Source of the DNA: Anaerolineae bacterium
GTDB taxonomy: Bacteria; Chloroflexota; Anaerolineae; Aggregatilineales; Aggregatilineaceae
Assembly: GCA_027494015.1 (NCBI GenBank)
Contig: JAOSJP010000023.1
Coordinates: forward strand, 124,001 to 188,000
Direction: 5' to 3'
DNA: 64,000 nt
The notes below the pieces were generated by a model that did no database searches, was not told the DNA's origin, and saw nothing but the letters and a program-made list of their open reading frames with translations. The position numbers and the translations under genes are program-made. Within the stretch, counting starts at the first letter, position 1; each line of letters starts with the position of its first letter. Positions 12,208 to 43,777 of this stretch are shown here, piece after piece.

Positions 12208-12281
12208 GCAGGGAACGTCTGCCGGTTGGCATGGGGAAACACACCCTTGCGAGATGGCCCTGCTAAACGATTGCTTGCCTC

Positions 12282-12632
12282 TCAAAACAGCGCAAGCTGC
12301 CCTGGCGGGACGGGCGGCGGCTCGTCGGGGCTGTCGTCGCCCTCAGCGTCGAGGGCCGCCTCCTCATCGAAGGGCGCAGGCTCAGCCGCCATGCCCCCCT
12401 CGTCGAGGCCCTCCACCGCGTGAGGTGCGTCGCTCGCGCTCTCCGGCAGGGAGCGACCGGCAAATCCCTCTGCCTGCAGCGCTGCCATCTCTTCGTCGCT
12501 GATGCCCGTCTGGTGCAGGACGTGGCGCAGTGTCGGCTCGGTGACGGCGTCGCCGGCGCGCAGGACGTGCACGTAATGCGCGCGCAGGCAGTCCTGCCAT
12601 TCGTCGAAGAAAATGCTGTGTTTGTCGCTCAT
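12282..12632 (-). CDS. Small acidic protein of unknown function
   Basis: 116 residues. The N-terminal half (SIFFDEWQDCLRAHYVHVLRAGD, ISDEEMAALQAEG) is predicted helical and looks like a small interaction domain. The C-terminal 55 residues are a disordered stretch rich in Asp, Glu, Pro and Ala, ending PPGQLALF. No homologous family is recognised. Codon usage matches its neighbours. The next gene upstream on the strand is galK, separated by a strong palindrome. Confidence 0.6.
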   Translation of the reverse strand: MSDKHSIFFDEWQDCLRAHYVHVLRAGDAVTEPTLRHVLHQTGISDEEMAALQAEGFAGRSLPESASDAPHAVEGLDEGGMAAEPAPFDEEAALDAEGDDSPDEPPPVPPGQLALF

Positions 12633-12703
12633 GGTGGGTGCAGGCGTTGATCGCCTCGCTCAGGTTATTCCATCAGGCAGAGCGGCGAGTCTGGCCCCTG
12701 TAC

Positions 12704-12737
12704 AGACTTCCGAAGTCTTTGGAGACTCCGGAAGTCT
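12704..12737. terminator. Palindrome after galK (R3 family)
   Basis: The 15-bp arms AGACTTCCGAAGTCT / AGACTCCGGAAGTCT (one mismatch) close a TTGG loop. The structure starts 14 nt beyond the galK stop. A sibling with the same arm sequence lies between fabI and metG. Its position suggests a transcription terminator, although no U-tract is present. Confidence 0.55.
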
Positions 12738-12750
12738 CTCGTGTACGCCC

Positions 12751-13897
12751 TTATAGCCGCTCGACGCCGCTGCCCTCCGCCGCCTGGCAGACGTAAAGGT
12801 GCGGCGCCAGGCCGGTCTTGGCCGTGTAGGTGGGGCCGACCGCTCCCACGAAGGCGTCCACCGCCTCATTCTGGACGAGAGCCACCGCGCAGCCGCCGAA
12901 ACCCGCGCCGGTCATGCGCGCGCCGTAACAGCCGGGCTGGGCGTTGGCGATGTCCACGATGGCGTCTAGCTCGGCACAGCTTACCTCGTAATCGTCGCGC
13001 AGGCTGGCGTGACTCTCGCGCAGCGCCTGCCCCACCGTCTTGAGGGCGTTGCCGCGCAGCGCCATGACGGTGACGCGCACGCGCAGGTTCTCGCTGACGA
13101 TGTGCCTGGCCCGGCGGTAGAGCACGTCGCCAAGCTGCGCTTGGGCCTCTTCAAGCTGCGGCAGCGTGGCGTCGCGCAATGCCGGCACGCTCAGCTTCTC
13201 CGCCGCCGCCTCGCACTGCTCGCGCCGCGCCGCGTATTCAGAGTCCACCAGCCCGCGCCGCTTGGCCGTGTCCATGATGACGATGCTGGCCCCTTTGGGG
13301 ACGGGCACCGGCTGCGCGTCCAGGCTGCGGCAGTCTATCAGCAGGGCGTGCCCGGCCCGGCCCAGCGCCGAGGCCATCTGGTCCATCACGCCGCAGGGCA
13401 TGCCGATGAACTGGTGCTCGACCTCGACGCCGCCCAACGCCTTCTCAACCTGGGACAGGCTCGCGCCCAGCCAGGGCCAGCCCCAGCTCGATCAGGGCCA
13501 CTTCGACCGCCGCCGACGACGACAACCCCGCGCCGATGGGGATGTCGCCGCCGATCAGCGCGTCGAAGCCGGGCACGGTGTGGCCCTGGTTCTCCAGCCA
13601 CCACAACGACCCGCGCGGATACTTGCTCCAGGCGGGCAGGCCGGGGTCGTCCAGGTCGTCGAGGGCGAAGGTCGTCTCGGCGCTGAAGTCGGTGGAGATG
13701 AGGTGCACCGTGCGGTCAGGGCGCGGGCGGGCGGCGACGTACACGGCGCGGTCAATGGCGGCGGGCAGCACGAAGCCGTCGTTGTAGTCGGTGTGCTCGC
13801 CGATCAGGTTGACGCGCCCCGGCGCGCGGGCCAGCAGCGTTGGCTGCCCTCCAAAACGGTCGGCGAACGTGGTGAGCACGGTGTCTTTTACGGTCAT
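12751..13897 (-). pseudogene. galK: Galactokinase, broken by a single-base frameshift
   Basis: The first frame (13897 to 13445) has the GHMP-kinase galactokinase signature GRVNLIGEHTDYNDGFVLP and the ATP-binding PIGAGLSSSAAVEVAL. It then runs to a premature stop. The second frame, ending at 12751, continues with FIGMPCGVMDQMAS, MDTAKRRGLV and the third GHMP motif GARMTGAGFGGCAVAL. Deleting one base in the CCC run at 13466-13468 joins them through GASLSQVEKALGGVEVEHQ into about 381 residues, normal for GalK. It phosphorylates galactose at C1 in the Leloir pathway. It follows the GT39 gene and galT, so an operon is likely. All motifs are intact except for the shift, so an assembly error is a serious alternative. 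Confidence 0.92.
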
Positions 13898-31803: not shown

Positions 31804-32181
31804 TCAGCCCTGCCCGTCGCGCAGATGCCGGTGCAGTTTTTCCAGCAGCTCGGCGGTGCTGATCGGCTTGGAGAGATAATCGTCGCAGCCCGCCGCCAGA
31901 AAGCGCTCGCGGTCGCCGCGCATGGCATTGGCCGTCAGGGCAATGATCGGGATCGGCCCGGTGTCGGGGCGCGCCTTCAGGCGGCTTGTGGCTTCCACGC
32001 CGTCAATCCCCGGCAGGCTGATGTCCATCAGGATCAGGTCGGGCAGCTCTTTTGTCGCCACCTCGACGCCAGTCAGCCCGTCGTCCGCTTCCAGCACCTC
32101 GAAGCCGCGCGCCTGCAACATCTTGCGCACCAGGCGCTTGTTCTGGAAATTGTCCTCGACGTACAGAATGCGGTATGCCAT
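31804..32181 (-). CDS. Single-domain response regulator (CheY-like)
   Basis: 125 residues, one receiver domain. The acidic pocket ED is in ILYVEDN, the phosphoacceptor Asp is in LILMDISLPGIDG, Thr is in IIALTAN and Lys is in DDYLSKPI. GCDDYLSKPI is typical of receivers paired with hybrid kinases. There is no output domain. Start ATG 32181 with GGAG upstream. It is last in the six-gene cluster, 56 nt after the PLP-receiver fusion, and probably a phosphate shuttle or diffusible output of the kinase at 34378. Confidence 0.92.
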   Translation of the reverse strand: MAYRILYVEDNFQNKRLVRKMLQARGFEVLEADDGLTGVEVATKELPDLILMDISLPGIDGVEATSRLKARPDTGPIPIIALTANAMRGDRERFLAAGCDDYLSKPISTAELLEKLHRHLRDGQG

Positions 32182-32237
32182 AGCACACTCCACGCCCCAC
32201 CCCCCAGGTTGACCTGGTCAATACCCTGCCCGCGCGC

Positions 32238-34367
32238 TCACCGCTCACCGAGCGTTTCATCCACCGACGCGATCAACGCCTGGCGATCCAGGGTCGCCTT
32301 TTGAAACAGCGAGATAATCTGGCCCAGCAGCCGCTCGCGCTCGTCGCGGCGCAAATCCTTCGCCGTCAGCACGACCACCGGGATGTCGCGCGTTCTGGCG
32401 TCGGCGCGCAGCCGCTCCAGCAGCGCTTCGCCGCTGATGTCTGGCAGCATCAGGTCGGTGACGACCAGCGCCGGTTGCTGGCGCAGGATGGTCGCCCAGC
32501 CCGACTCGCCGTCATACGCCTCGGTCACACGGTAGCGCCCCGTCGCTTCGAGCAGCCGGCGGATCAGGCGGGCGTCGCGCGGCTCGTCGTCAATGACCAC
32601 AATCGCGCGCGGCGGCGGCGGCTCTGGGGCGATGCTCTCTTTGGAAGCTGCCGCCACCTGCCCCTCGCTGGCCAGGGTTAGCTCCGGCGGGGTCTCGCCC
32701 AGGCTGCCGCCGAGCGCGCTGACCACGTGCTCGACCAGATCGCGCGTGTTGAAGCTGCCCTTCTGCCACAGCGACTCGGCGACCCCTTCCAGCCGCGCGC
32801 GGTCGGCGGGAGTCAGCGTCTTGGCCGAGACGACCACGACCGGGATACGGGCCACGTCCGGGTCGTTCTTCAGCATGGCGAGCAGGGCGAAGCCATCCAG
32901 ATCGGGCATCATCAGGTCGAGCACCACCAGGTCGGGCCGTCGCTGGCGAACGATGTCCAGGCCGTCGCGCGGGTCGTTGACCTCAAACACGCGGTAGCTC
33001 TTGTGCGCTTGCAGCAGGCGGCGGATCAGGCGGCTGTCCTGCGGGTTGTCGTCAATGACGACGACGGTCGTCACCTGCTCGTCGAGGCGTTCGAAGGCCG
33101 CGCCCAGCCCCTCGGCCATCTGCACGTGCCCCGGCCCCGGCTCCGCCTCGGCGAATTCCAGGTCGAGCACGTACTGGTCTTCGAGGATGTGCTTCTCCGC
33201 CGGGAAGGTGTGGCCAGAGCAGTTGATGATCACTGTCTCGGTGGGGGCGATCACGCCGCCCGCGATCAGGTGCTCCAGCCCGGCGAAAGCCACCGCCGCC
33301 GCCGGCTCCATGCTGATCCCCTCGACGCGGGCCAGGCGGCGCATGGCGCGGAACGCCTCCCCATCGGCGACGGCGATCATCGTCCCCTCGGTCGCCAGGC
33401 ACGCCTGGCGCAGCAGCGGGTAGGCGCGCCCAGGGTCGCCCGTCGCCAGCACGGAGATGCGCGTCTGCGGGCTGACCGGCTCGGCCACTTCGTGCCCGGC
33501 CTCCCACGCCGCCACCATCGGCGCGCAGCCCGCCGACTGCACCAGCGCCAGGCGGGGCAAGCGGTCAATCAGCCCCATCTGCCATAGCTCGCTGAAGCCC
33601 TTCCACACGCCCAGCGGGCCGATCCCCCCGCTGACCGCCTGGACGTACCAGTCGGGCGCGTGCCAGGGAGTGTTGCCGGGCACCATACGCGCAAGCTGCT
33701 CGGCGATCTCGTAGGCGATGGTCTTGAACGACTCGCGGCCCAGCAAGGCGCTCGCGCCGGGGTCGTAATACAGATCGCGCCGGGAGGCGAAGTCCTGCGC
33801 GATCTGCTTGGCCTGGTCGTAGGAGCCAGCGATCTTGACCACTTCTGCGCCGTAGAGAGCCAGCTCGCGCAGCTTTTCGGCGGGCACGCTGCTGGTCAGA
33901 AAAACCCACAGGCGGATGCCCGCCCGCGCGCAAAACGCGGCATAGGCCGCCGCCTTGTTGCCCGTCGAGGCGATCACGCACTCGTCAATGCCCTGCTGGG
34001 CCAGGTGCGTGATGGTCAGCGCCGCCTGCCGGTCTTTGAAGCTGGCAGTGGGCAGCCGCCGCTCGTCCTTGACGAACAGGCCGGCGTGCCCCAATTCGCG
34101 GCCCAGCCCAGCAGCCGGCATCAGCGGAGTCCATCCCTCGCTCATCGAGACCGCCCCGCGCGGCGCGATGGGCAGCAGCTCGCCATAGCGCCACAGCGAG
34201 GTGGGGCGGGCGCTCAGATTGCCGCGCCACGCCGCCGCCGCGCGCGCGTAGTCGTACTGCGCGTCGAGCCAGGCCGATCCGCACTGGTCGCACACGGCGG
34301 GCAGCGGCTCCGGGGCCATGTGCTGGCCACAGTCCAGGCATACCACCGCGTTCAGCAGCGAAGGCAT
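32238..34367 (-). CDS. Threonine-synthase-like PLP enzyme fused to two receiver domains
   Basis: 709 residues in three parts. Residues 1-430 are a fold-type II PLP enzyme of the threonine synthase group: an N-terminal zinc-ribbon-like Cys set (C10, C13, C26, C29), the Schiff-base Lys K111 in TASFKDRQAA, the phosphate-binding STGNKAAAYAA and SGGIGPLGVWKGF. A first receiver domain spans about 432-555 (DD439-440, phosphoacceptor D484 in VVLDLMMPDLDG, K in VVSAKT). A second spans 586-705 (DD593-594, D638 in VVTDLMLPDISG, K in VLTAKD). All receiver residues are present. Such a fusion is not one I know from characterised systems. It starts 10 nt after the sensor kinase stop, implying that phosphorylation may control the enzyme. 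Confidence 0.88.
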   Translation of the reverse strand: MPSLLNAVVCLDCGQHMAPEPLPAVCDQCGSAWLDAQYDYARAAAAWRGNLSARPTSLWRYGELLPIAPRGAVSMSEGWTPLMPAAGLGRELGHAGLFVKDERRLPTASFKDRQAALTITHLAQQGIDECVIASTGNKAAAYAAFCARAGIRLWVFLTSSVPAEKLRELALYGAEVVKIAGSYDQAKQIAQDFASRRDLYYDPGASALLGRESFKTIAYEIAEQLARMVPGNTPWHAPDWYVQAVSGGIGPLGVWKGFSELWQMGLIDRLPRLALVQSAGCAPMVAAWEAGHEVAEPVSPQTRISVLATGDPGRAYPLLRQACLATEGTMIAVADGEAFRAMRRLARVEGISMEPAAAVAFAGLEHLIAGGVIAPTETVIINCSGHTFPAEKHILEDQYVLDLEFAEAEPGPGHVQMAEGLGAAFERLDEQVTTVVVIDDNPQDSRLIRRLLQAHKSYRVFEVNDPRDGLDIVRQRRPDLVVLDLMMPDLDGFALLAMLKNDPDVARIPVVVVSAKTLTPADRARLEGVAESLWQKGSFNTRDLVEHVVSALGGSLGETPPELTLASEGQVAAASKESIAPEPPPPRAIVVIDDEPRDARLIRRLLEATGRYRVTEAYDGESGWATILRQQPALVVTDLMLPDISGEALLERLRADARTRDIPVVVLTAKDLRRDERERLLGQIISLFQKATLDRQALIASVDETLGER

Positions 34368-34377
34368 ACGGCTCCTC

Positions 34378-37641
<3,264 letters not shown>

Positions 37642-37819: not shown

Positions 37820-38884
37820 TCACTCCTGAGCGCTCAGGAAATCGAGCGTATAGGCCGCCTCTACATCGAGCGGCGCGGTCAGCAGGCCCAGATCGAGCAG
37901 CGTCTGATGCGTGAACGTCCAGTTGTCGTCGTCCATTATGCCCGGCTGCCCGCCGGCGGGCACCAGCAGCGGGATGGATGACTGCATCCCCAGCAGGTGA
38001 ACCTCGCGGTCTTCGGCGTAGGGCTGACCGTAGGTGGACTTCAGAAAGGCCTCCACCGCCTGGTCAGGCTGCTCGACAGCCCACTGCGTGCCCTTCATCG
38101 TCGCCTGCAGGAATGCGCGCACCATGTCGGGCTGGCTGGCGATCAGGTCTTCGGTGGTGAAGATGACGCTGCTGTAAATGTCAATGCCGTAGTCGCTGAC
38201 CATGATGAAATTCGCTTCAGGATCGCGCTGGCGCACCTGCACGCCCTCGGTCGTCACGAAACCGGCCAGCACCTCAGCCTCGTCCGTGAACAGGGGGTTG
38301 CTGGTGAAGTCGGTGCGCATCGTTTCCTGAATCTGCGCCCGGTCAATGCCCTGCGCGGCCAGCAGCGCCTCGTAGGCCAGCCCGACGGTGGCGTTGGTCG
38401 GCTGCGTGGAGACGCGGTGCCCGACCAGGTCCTGGGGCCGGGTGATGCCGCTCTCCGACAGGGCGATCAGCACCACCGGGCTGCGCTGATAGATCGTGGC
38501 AACGGCGACGATGGGCGCGCCCTCAGCGCGGTGCGCCAGCAACACGTGCGCTCCGGTCACGCCGAAGTCGGCTTTGCCGTCCAGCACCGCCTGCACCGGG
38601 TCAATGAACGCGCCGCTCTCGTCGAAGCCGCCGCCGTCCAGGCGTACCTCCAGGCCAGCGTCGCGGTAGTAGCCCTGCTGCTCGGCGACATAGAAGCCAA
38701 TGAACTCCACGTTGTGCACCCACGAGAACTGGATGCTGGTCTGGGTGAGGCTGGCGGGCGGCTGCGTTCCGCCAGACGGCTTATTGTCGCCATTCTTATC
38801 ATCGTCCCCACAGGCGGCCAACGCAGCGACCAGCAAGACGACCAGAAGAAACAACCCCACACGGCGAAGTGAACGGACTGGCAT
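37820..38884 (-). CDS. NMT1/THI5-like solute-binding lipoprotein
   Basis: 354 residues, lipobox ALAAC. The fold of SsuA/THI5-type periplasmic binding proteins is visible: IQFSWVHNVEFIGFYVAEQQGYYRDAGLEVRL, then QAVLDGKADFGVTGAHVLLAHRAEGAPIVAVATIYQRSPVVLIAL, and LVGHRVSTQPTNATVGLAYEALL. Such proteins bind hydroxymethylpyrimidine-like, sulfonate or aromatic ligands and normally feed an ABC transporter. No permease or ATPase is in the cluster; it lies between two sensor genes (48 nt after the GAF sensor). A role as the ligand-binding partner of the sensors is inferred. Confidence 0.88.
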   Translation of the reverse strand: MPVRSLRRVGLFLLVVLLVAALAACGDDDKNGDNKPSGGTQPPASLTQTSIQFSWVHNVEFIGFYVAEQQGYYRDAGLEVRLDGGGFDESGAFIDPVQAVLDGKADFGVTGAHVLLAHRAEGAPIVAVATIYQRSPVVLIALSESGITRPQDLVGHRVSTQPTNATVGLAYEALLAAQGIDRAQIQETMRTDFTSNPLFTDEAEVLAGFVTTEGVQVRQRDPEANFIMVSDYGIDIYSSVIFTTEDLIASQPDMVRAFLQATMKGTQWAVEQPDQAVEAFLKSTYGQPYAEDREVHLLGMQSSIPLLVPAGGQPGIMDDDNWTFTHQTLLDLGLLTAPLDVEAAYTLDFLSAQE

Positions 38885-38932: not shown

Positions 38933-40711
38933 TCATTGGGCCGGGACAGACTCCTCAGATTGCCCGGCGTGCCCGTCGGCGTCGTCAGAGGCCAGCTTCA
39001 GCTCGATGGCCGTGTGCGGCACGCGCAGCGCCTTGCCCAGCTCGCGCGCTGTGGTGTGGATCAGCTCGTCGAGGCTGGTGGCGCGCTGAATCTGCTCGGC
39101 GATGACGTTGAGCGTCTGCTCGTGGCGGGTGGCCCGCTCTACGCCGCGGAACAGGCGGGCGTTCTCCAGCGCGACGGCGATCTGGCTGGCCAGCGTCATG
39201 AACACGTCCAGCAGGTCCGGCCCGAAGCGATCCTCCACGTCCGCCTGCACGTCGAGCACGCCCAGCACGCGCTTCCCCGCCACCAACGGGAAAGCCGCCT
39301 CTGAGCGCGTGTCGGGCAGCAGCGGGTTGGGCAGGAAGTTGGGGTCTTGCGTTGTGTCGGCCACGATCACTGGCTGGTTTTCGCGGGCGGCGCGAGCCAC
39401 CAGGCTGCGCGCGCGCAGGGAGATGCTGTGCCCGCGCGCGAGCATCACCCGGCCTGGCTCGCCGGCGCCCGCCGCCAGCAGCAGCGCATCGCGTTCCTCG
39501 TTGAGCAGGTAGACATGCGCGTGATAGAGGTCGAAGCTCTCTTTGGTCAGCTCGACAATCTGCGGCAGCAGCTCGTCCGGGTCGAGGATGGCCGCCGCTT
39601 GCTGCGCCACGGTTGACGCCACGCGCAGGTCATGGGTGCGGGCTTCCACGCGGTCTTCCAGCGCGCCGACCAGCGCGCCAAGCTGCCCGGCCATGTCGTT
39701 CAGCGCGCGGGCTGCCGTGCCGATCTCCACGCCGCCGGATTCCGGGGCGCGCGTCGCCAGGTTGCCAGCGCCCAGCGCGCGCGCCGCGCCAGCCAAAGCC
39801 GCCAGCGGGCGCGTGACGCGGGCCACGATCAGCAGACCGATCACCGCCACGCCCAGGACCGTTGCGGCCAACACGATGACGGTGGTCCTCAGCACGTCAT
39901 AAGCAGGCCGGTACGCTTCGGAGGTGGGAAGCTCGGCCACCACTGTGAACGCCTGATCCCCTAACCGCACGCGCTCATAGGCCAGCACCACATCGCTGCC
40001 GCTGAGGCCAGTGGTCTCGCCGAAACTGTCCGGCACGGCGAACTCGGTGCCGCGCAGCACGATGGAGGGGTTGCGGTGAGCCACCACGCGGCTCTGCGCG
40101 TCCACCACATACACGTCCTGGCCCCTGGCAACGGGCAGATCGGCAATCAGGTTCCAGACCGGCTTGAGCCGGACGGTGGCAGCGAACACCAACCGCACCT
40201 CGCCGGAGCGCAGGTCTACCAGCGGCAGAGACATCTCCATCAACGGCTCGCCGGTCGCCGCCTCGATGCGCACCGGGCCGTAGTAGGCCGTCTGCTGCGT
40301 CGCTGGCACGCGGAAGACATCCTCGCTGGCGCGGTTGGCGAGATCGGCGGGGGACACTACAGCGCGCTGGGCCACGCGCATCAATTCCTGCCCATCCGGG
40401 TCGAGCAGGGCCAGCTCGGTGAAAACGCGGTCATAAGCCAGCAGGTCCGACAGCGCTGCCGCCTGCTCTTCGGCGGGCAGGTCGAGCAGCCCGCCAACCT
40501 GCGCCACCAGCTCCAGCGAGCGGGTGCGCTCGGCCAGGAACTGCTCCACTTCGCCCGCCACGCGCCGGGCGACCTCGGCCTGCAGGTCTTGCGACTGTTC
40601 GCGCTGCGCGGTGAAGCTGCGCGCGGTGGCCACGCCGCCGGCGATCAGCGTCGGCACCACGGCCAGCACGATCATGATCAGGGTCAGTCGTCCACGTAGG
40701 CTCTTGAGCAT
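38933..40711 (-). CDS. Membrane sensor with HAMP and GAF domains but no transmitter
   Basis: 592 residues. Membrane segments at about 10-30 and 272-295 flank a dCache-type extracytoplasmic domain (VFTELALLDPDGQELMRVAQ, YYGPVRIEAATGEPLMEMSLPLVD, QDVYVVDAQSRVVAHRNPSI). A HAMP domain (RPLAALAGAARALGAGNLATR), a coiled coil and a GAF domain (about 370-525; FLPNPLLPDTRSEAAFPLVAG) follow. A 60-residue tail, TRHEQTLNVIAEQIQRATSLDEL, ends IELKLAS. This resembles the start of a second GAF-adjacent helix and stops before any kinase, cyclase or phosphatase domain. It shares close GAF sequence with the kinase at 34378, so the two may heteromerise (inference). Confidence 0.87.
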   Translation of the reverse strand: MLKSLRGRLTLIMIVLAVVPTLIAGGVATARSFTAQREQSQDLQAEVARRVAGEVEQFLAERTRSLELVAQVGGLLDLPAEEQAAALSDLLAYDRVFTELALLDPDGQELMRVAQRAVVSPADLANRASEDVFRVPATQQTAYYGPVRIEAATGEPLMEMSLPLVDLRSGEVRLVFAATVRLKPVWNLIADLPVARGQDVYVVDAQSRVVAHRNPSIVLRGTEFAVPDSFGETTGLSGSDVVLAYERVRLGDQAFTVVAELPTSEAYRPAYDVLRTTVIVLAATVLGVAVIGLLIVARVTRPLAALAGAARALGAGNLATRAPESGGVEIGTAARALNDMAGQLGALVGALEDRVEARTHDLRVASTVAQQAAAILDPDELLPQIVELTKESFDLYHAHVYLLNEERDALLLAAGAGEPGRVMLARGHSISLRARSLVARAARENQPVIVADTTQDPNFLPNPLLPDTRSEAAFPLVAGKRVLGVLDVQADVEDRFGPDLLDVFMTLASQIAVALENARLFRGVERATRHEQTLNVIAEQIQRATSLDELIHTTARELGKALRVPHTAIELKLASDDADGHAGQSEESVPAQ

Positions 40712-40774: not shown

Positions 40775-41783
40775 TCACTGCGTCGCCGGGCGGAGGATCG
40801 TGTCGGCCTGGCTGAGCACGGCGGTGGGCACCTCAATGCCCAGCGCCGCCGCCGTCTCCAGATTGACCATCAGCGCAAAATCGAGCGATTCAACGGGCAG
40901 GTCGCCGGGGCTGGTTCCGCGCAGCACCTGCGCCGCCAGCCGCGCCACCTGCTCGCCCGCCGGGTAGAACTCCACGCCGTAGCTGAGCAGCACGTTGTCC
41001 GTCTCCGGGATGCTGGGCGTAGAGAAGGGCACGCGCCGCGCCATTGCTGCGGCGGCGAACTCAACGGCGAAATCGTTGGTCGTCACATCGGGCAGGATGA
41101 CGATCACATCCACGTCATCGGGGATTTCGGCGATGGCCTGGCGCACTTCGTCGGGCGTGTGGACTTCGCGCAGCAGCAGCTCCAGGCCGAGCGGATCGGT
41201 CACGGTGCGCACGTCTTCCAGCGCCGACTGCACCGCCTGGATGTCTCGTGTCCAGCGGCAGATACACACGCTGCATATCGGGCAGCACCTGCTTGAGAAT
41301 CTGCAAGCGGCGCGAGTCCGGGTTGGCGTCGGAGACGCCGGTCATATTGCCGCCGGGCTGGGGCCAGCTTGCCACGAAGCCCGCGCCCACCGGGTCAGTG
41401 ACCAGCGTGAAGATGATCGGGATGGTCTTGCTGGCGGACTGGGCGGCCAGCGCCCCCGGCGTGGTGATGGCGAAGATCAAGTCCACATCGTGCTCGACCA
41501 GGGTTTGGGCATAGGTCGCCAACCCCTCGCCGAAATTGCCAACTGGCCCATCGTATTCGTAGGCGATGTTCTGCCCCTCGACATAGCCCAGCGCGGCCAT
41601 GCCGGTCTTGAAGCCTTCAACGGACGGGTCAAAGAGGTCAATCGGATTGAGGATGCCTATCTTGAACTGCTTCTGGGTGCTGTCATCATCGCCGCCACAG
41701 GCAGCCAGCCCCAGCGCCAGCAGCATTACTACCACCCACATCCCTGACCAGTAGGGTTGCTTCCGTGCTGTGTGATGAGACAT
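40775..41783 (-). pseudogene. ABC_sub_bind (TrpX-like) solute-binding lipoprotein, frameshifted
   Basis: The first frame (ATG 41783) has a signal peptide with lipobox LAACG, then FKIGILNPIDLFDPSVEGFKTGM and IPIIFTLVTDPVGAGFVAS, PGGNMTGVSD, the ABC_sub_bind (DUF534/TrpX) signature. It breaks near 41244-41248 after RVYLPLDT. The second frame continues DIQAVQSALEDV, VDVIVILPDVTTND, VPFSTPSIPE and VLLSYGVEFYPAGEQVARLAAQVL to 40775. Removing one base restores about 335 residues. It is the first gene of the signalling cluster and has its own promoter. The family binds amino acids or similar ligands for ABC uptake, but no transporter gene is present. Decay versus sequencing error cannot be decided here. 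Confidence 0.87.
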
Positions 41784-41911
41784 TGGCTCTCTCACCTTTT
41801 CCGGCTGAAGGGCGCTTCCAGCGCCTGCGACCCCGGCCAGCCCTCTGGCAGGCAATGGCGTCGGAGGGCCGGCTCGTGGGGAATCCTGCGAGGTCCACAA
41901 GAGACGTTTTC

Positions 41912-42427: not shown

Positions 42428-43777
<1,350 letters not shown>

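Follow-up and report, generated by a model that had tools for sequence, protein, structure and literature searches.

PleD (REC-REC-GGDEF) is a response regulator with an enzymatic output. Threonine synthase, ThrC, holds the phosphate of its substrate with two sequence motifs, TGNT and NSxNPxRxEG. Receiver domains are also found on standard metabolic enzymes, and multiple bacterial instances are mentioned in a census of archaeal signalling by two-component systems published in 2018 (PMC5847659). An earlier note on the DNA analyzed here had stated that direct control of an amino acid enzyme by phosphorelay, which it offered as an inference, would be a new regulatory logic. Given the REC-bearing metabolic enzymes mentioned in that part of the census, this was an overstatement.

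The gene in question was found in a 64-kb stretch of DNA, which is referred to as the window, and encodes a PLP-dependent domain joined to two receivers. The following features were assigned, with residue numbers referring to the encoded protein:

32238..34367, minus strand: fusion gene of 709 aa, in the order zinc ribbon, PALP, linker, REC1, REC2 (open reading frame list and Pfam)
34281..34340, minus strand: zinc-ribbon-like CxxC...CxxC, residues 10-29, with C10, C13, C26 and C29 as putative zinc ligands
33216..34151, minus strand: PALP domain of PLP fold-type II, residues 73-384 (Pfam, E 7.2e-68)
34035..34037, minus strand: K111 of SFKDR, predicted PLP Schiff-base lysine (homologue conservation)
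33069..33113, minus strand: conserved linker stretch leading into REC1, residues 419-433 (majority fractions in 68 sequences)
32712..33065, minus strand: REC1, residues 435-552 (Pfam Response_reg)
32916..32918, minus strand: D484, predicted phosphoacceptor of REC1 (homologue conservation)
32250..32606, minus strand: REC2, residues 588-706 (Pfam Response_reg)
32454..32456, minus strand: D638, predicted phosphoacceptor of REC2 (homologue conservation)

The open reading frame comprised 709 codons from the ATG at 34367 and contained zero internal stops. Two Response_reg matches were obtained in the protein (whole-protein E 8.6e-35). Both receivers were complete, with D439/D440, D484, S514 and K536 in REC1 and D593/D594, D638, T668 and K690 in REC2. 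The receiver lysines, S514 and T668 were assigned from the spacing in CheY, where the Asp is followed by the Thr/Ser after about 30 residues and by the Lys after about 52. K516 and K670 are the neighbouring lysines of SAK/TAK and are distinct from the conserved receiver lysines. The threonine-synthase-like PLP domain and the two complete receivers claimed in the earlier note were confirmed by Pfam and by the residue positions. K111 in SFKDR, the Cys set, D484, D638 and the acidic pairs were all found as described, and the conserved receiver lysine, which had been left unnumbered, corresponds to K536 and K690 by CheY spacing. In the AlphaFold model the mean pLDDT was 87.4 within the three folded domains, and the arrangement of the domains was left open (pTM 0.62). 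The pLDDT was below 50 at residues 393-399, 401-431 and 567-582; a helix was modelled at 421-429 in the linker stretch, but within this low-scoring region. The top Foldseek matches were threonine synthases (2d1f, E 2e-26).

Of 5971 database matches, the 120 listed all contained both PF00291 and PF00072. In a scan of genome contigs for relatives the best 80 of 189 loci were kept. They come from many separate assemblies, with two pairs of loci each drawn from a shared genome, and the PALP-receiver fusion was present in 80/80. Two receivers were found in 72 and one in eight, of which one (L016) is cut by a contig end. The labels of 78 of the 80 loci are those of groups that we take to belong to Chloroflexota. 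L076 is labelled Pleurocapsa minor but has a gene order of the Chloroflexota type and is probably a mis-binned contig. Among 298 genomes from the class of the closest genome available, 127 matches were obtained at 1e-60 and 97 of these at 1e-100. Most of the 97 were of the single-receiver type, and the alignment reached REC1 in all except a fragment (G116). Those of the weaker class-level matches that were listed were either fragmentary or frames about 415-495 codons long. A phylum-level sample of 301 genomes gave 34 matches at 1e-100. Judged from these sequences, the fusion is an old arrangement, widely conserved across many Chloroflexota.

The residues expected of a working enzyme and of working receivers were retained almost without exception. 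D439, D440, D484, S514, K536, D594, D638 and K690 were each found in 120/120 of the type-A homologues listed; D593 was present in 119/120, and position 668 was Thr or Ser in 120/120. K111 was Lys in 118/118 type-A and 120/120 type-B homologues with the position. Of the zinc-ribbon-like cysteines, C26 was kept in 115/116 and C29 in 116/116 homologues with the position. Values of dN/dS were 0.00-0.22 for PALP, REC1 and REC2 in eight pairs, with one REC2 value saturated. The linker stretch at 419-433 had a mean majority fraction of 0.76 in 68 sequences, compared to 0.73 for the enzyme domain and 0.35 for residues 400-416.

In a tree with outgroups all taken from the same host genomes, and built without T1_L093 (wrong strand) and L094, a branch with 100/100 support set 45 rows, made up of 41 fusions and four PALP-only relatives, apart from 13 and 11 ThrC-like rows. 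From this topology a single origin of the PALP-receiver fusions is likely. Two PALP-only proteins, P0143 and P0155, were nested within the fusion clade and look like real receiver losses. Other PALP-only matches, P0124, P0130 and P0132, were rejected as stand-alone relatives; by eye, their ends resemble frame-shifted sequence. A 1695-codon frame in L036 that ends in PALP-REC-REC was likewise rejected as a natural kinase fusion: its first 1000 residues had no Pfam domain and resemble out-of-frame sequence, as does the long frame L108 by eye. In P0065, of 844 aa, the PALP domain is followed by three matches to receivers.

A paralogous single-receiver family, type B, with members about 550-560 residues long, was found alongside the first fusion in 10/14 genomes searched (L121, which is the same gene as L079, was excluded from the paralogue counts). 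All 120 type-B members listed kept K111, D440, D484 and K536, whereas the Asp at position 439 is replaced by Glu. A large kinase was directly upstream in 8/10 type-B regions; none was found at L114, and L117 yielded no gene call. Directly after the type-B fusion a REC-kinase was present in 6/10, by profile match and with a Pfam check in two. The single-receiver PALP-REC family extends into the class Chloroflexia. On a contig assigned to Herpetosiphon aurantiacus 114-95T, a 1877-codon frame, a PALP-REC protein (545 aa) and a receiver lie in a row; the kinase domains of the long frame were checked on a counterpart of equal length in L135.

The fusion of the window stands in a sensory operon, with the following neighbours:

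34378..37641, minus strand: sensor kinase of 1087 aa, dCache-HAMP-GAF-GAF-HisKA-HATPase (Pfam, H-box and ATP-binding motifs)
35047..35049, minus strand: H865 of SHELRTP, predicted phospho-histidine of the kinase (motif search)
31804..32193, minus strand: stand-alone receiver, 44 nt downstream of the fusion (Pfam)
37820..38884, minus strand: orphan NMT1/THI5-like substrate-binding protein (Pfam)
38933..40711, minus strand: dCache-HAMP-GAF sensor of 592 aa lacking a kinase domain (Pfam)
40775..41900, minus strand: substrate-binding protein of the ABC_sub_bind family (PF04392), with its gene split between two frames (Pfam)

The order of transcription is ABC_sub_bind, dCache-HAMP-GAF, NMT1-like, kinase, fusion, receiver. 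The open reading frame coordinates agree with the distance given in the earlier note, as the kinase ends 10 nt before the ATG of the fusion. No transporter permease was found among the six operon genes, so the ABC_sub_bind and NMT1-like proteins look like sensory inputs, to judge from gene content. No DNA-binding domain was found among the Pfam matches of the operon. The ABC_sub_bind gene was unsplit in L001, L002, L003 and L004, and the break near 41246 in the window copy is either a sequencing error or recent decay. The NMT1/THI5-like family was also found upstream of the fusion in L039, L050, L058 and L065, and GAF-bearing proteins were found upstream at many loci. Seven of seven upstream proteins from other loci, which had been picked as candidates and are not a random sample, were ABC_sub_bind or NMT1-like. 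Upstream sequence of 600 nt or more was available for 72 loci; a kinase adjoined the fusion in 44 of them and was within 5 kb in 55. No kinase was detected in 17/72 within 5 kb or the shorter sequence available; 13 of these span at least 5 kb and four less, and they include whole clades (L011-L015; L019, L020, L021, L023 and L026). A receiver was downstream of the fusion in 69/77 loci. The fusion, its intact switch residues and its linkage to a kinase, all proposed from a single window, are now supported far beyond what one window could give.

Further genes were observed near the fusion in some of the loci. In L019, L023 and L026 no upstream kinase was found, and the fusion is preceded by a gene that by eye resembles acyl-CoA dehydrogenase and by a receiver. 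In L039, L050, L061, L064, L073, L074 and L076 the receivers downstream of the fusion are followed by a gene for a protein of some 290-305 aa. Pfam identified this protein as a GNAT acetyltransferase at each of the three loci checked (L061, L064 and L073), and it may share a pathway with the fusion. Directly upstream of the fusion in L031 and L047 is a REC protein of about 360 aa with a C-terminal part that is nucleotide-cyclase-like by eye, and a gene of similar size is upstream in L035, L048, L059, L060, L063 and L066. A divergent, glutamine-synthetase-like gene (by eye) is located upstream of the operon in the window (42428-43777, plus strand) and was also seen in relatives (L003, 1990-3351, minus strand; L010, 1265-2614, minus strand).

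The presence of a conserved fusion beside a kinase suggests, without being proof of it, that the enzyme is controlled or read by an external signal. The reading that we prefer, with a confidence just short of even, is that the fusion is a response-regulator-type protein with a PLP-dependent fold-type II domain as its output, in which a solute signal passes through the kinase and the receivers to PALP activity. From architecture, residues, conservation and gene order we infer the following putative chain. The periplasmic binding proteins and the Cache sensor would detect an extracellular solute, and the membrane kinase would autophosphorylate on H865. The phosphate would be transferred to D484 and/or D638 of the fusion. 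Control would presumably run from the receivers to the PALP domain, by movement of the conserved linker stretch at 419-433. The predicted catalytic activity would thereby change towards an amino-acid-like substrate, probably one other than O-phosphohomoserine, and the stand-alone downstream receiver could be a second phosphate acceptor, as a branch or a sink.

Counted for the response-regulator reading were the domains, the 80/80 fusion, the near-invariant PLP and phosphorylation residues, the low dN/dS and the linker stretch. The kinase and receiver neighbours, the kinase linkage of type B (8/10), the kinase/PALP-REC/receiver row of the Herpetosiphon type, the separate ThrC, the orphan binding proteins and the 100/100 branch against ThrC were counted likewise. 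The 17/72 loci without a kinase, the receiver losses P0143 and P0155 and the open AlphaFold arrangement were counted against it. A doubtful extension, which we consider rather unlikely, is that early Chloroflexota co-opted a PLP enzyme as the metabolite-handling core of a dedicated signalling module. An extracellular solute, sensed through the orphan binding proteins and a kinase, and an intracellular amino acid, sensed through PLP chemistry, would be integrated in PALP-REC(-REC); the protein may then synthesise or break down a small signalling amino acid on command.

Several sources name homologues of the fusion threonine synthase, and its closest solved structures are threonine synthases. 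The protein could accordingly be a threonine synthase that serves biosynthesis and has gained a regulatory domain, an explanation that we find improbable. The window fusion (P0001) scored below the cut-off of every threonine-synthase model listed, with 132 bits towards TIGR00260 (cut-off 167.1) and 255.8 towards PRK08197 (cut-off 303). The type-A fusion, or the nearest one, of each of 14 host genomes reached 132-157 bits with TIGR00260, and 13 of the 14 also encode a separate ThrC that lacks receivers and exceeds the cut-off, as do 3/3 further related genomes. Two ThrC queries against the 64-kb window matched only the fusion, and no canonical ThrC was detected there. TGNT and NSxNPxRxEG were both found in 12/12 ThrC of the L081-L092 type, in 0/68 aligned fusions and in 0/240 homologues listed. 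The evidence is mixed, however. Six of ten type-B fusions were above the TIGR00260 cut-off (170-188 bits) and both Herpetosiphon-type fusions were barely above it (168 bits), and a second ThrC-like type also passes although the two motifs were present in 0/11 of its members. The threonine-synthase explanation was therefore weighted up, and the response-regulator reading down, on account of the type-B and Herpetosiphon-type scores. Because of the separate ThrC in 13/14 hosts and the type-A scores below the cut-off, the fusion is, on comparison of sequences, probably distinct from the enzyme with which its host makes threonine. GKxAxGK was tried as a third ThrC motif and rejected, as it was present in only 3/15 ThrC rows. 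The single host genome of the 14 that lacks a ThrC above the cut-off (G011) is that of L067, where a further PALP protein (510 aa), which has no receiver, is encoded 129 nt after the fusion (12256-13788, plus strand). An assembly chimera or a missed stop, named in the earlier note as a possible source of the fusion, has next to no probability. Chance and chimera were excluded because the fusion recurs in the 120 listed homologues and in 80/80 kept loci from separate assemblies, and the frame is a single open one.

The alternative closest to the response-regulator reading is that the PALP domain is a sensor, which uses PLP to bind an amino acid inside the cell and modulates the uptake, retention or transfer of phosphate by the receivers, with the output located elsewhere, in the stand-alone receiver or the REC-kinase. 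The sequence data cannot separate the two, and we regard the sensor as possible, if somewhat unlikely. It fits with an operon whose Pfam matches include no DNA-binding domain, with the REC-kinase directly after 6/10 type-B fusions, with the downstream receivers in 69/77 type-A loci and with the loss of the ThrC motifs in the fusions. An invariant PLP lysine is no proof of catalysis, as a PLP-binding sensor would keep the lysine too. However, the near invariance of the whole catalytic frame, K111, N137, the glycine loop and S384-G-H, seemingly goes beyond the needs of simple ligand binding. Enzymes of fold-type II usually form dimers, and rearrangement of dimers is a frequent mode of action of receivers. 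Both habits would suit a PALP domain that has no catalytic role and serves a signalling protein as a module for dimerisation or as a scaffold. This is quite improbable, as the active-site lysine and the PLP-binding residues would be expected to drift in such a module, and the lysine was kept in 118/118 and 120/120 homologues with the position.

If the response-regulator reading is true, a two-component system acts directly on amino acid chemistry, or reads it, without transcription. Both domains were present in the 240 homologues listed, and those named by their source were called threonine synthase or PLP-dependent enzyme; these annotations may therefore mislead. Aggregatilinea lenta and Herpetosiphon aurantiacus are named hosts, which makes the module testable.

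Compared to known systems, the fusion shares its fold and its PLP-binding frame with ThrC (2d1f, 2zsj and 1uim), which gave the best PDB matches by sequence and by structure. It differs from ThrC in having receivers, in lacking TGNT and NSxNPxRxEG, and, for type A, in scoring below the curated cut-offs. As in MocR/GabR-type regulators, a PLP enzyme fold is found inside a regulator, but these regulators are of fold-type I, with a DNA-binding domain and with neither receiver nor kinase. The fusion resembles PleD in having intact receivers beside a domain of catalytic type, and its tandem receivers (residues 433-702) aligned with a single PleD stretch when a profile of 68 relatives was used. However, its output is a PLP domain located N-terminal to the receivers, whereas that of PleD follows them. 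The principle is common to the REC-bearing metabolic enzymes of PMC5847659, which cites Galperin 2006 and 2010 and whose passage on these enzymes does not name a PLP enzyme. A description of a PALP-receiver protein was not found among the literature matches listed (title and start of abstract, with most subscription journals outside the scope). What appears to be new here is the use of a PLP domain as output, together with the breadth of its conservation and the sensory operon in which it stands.
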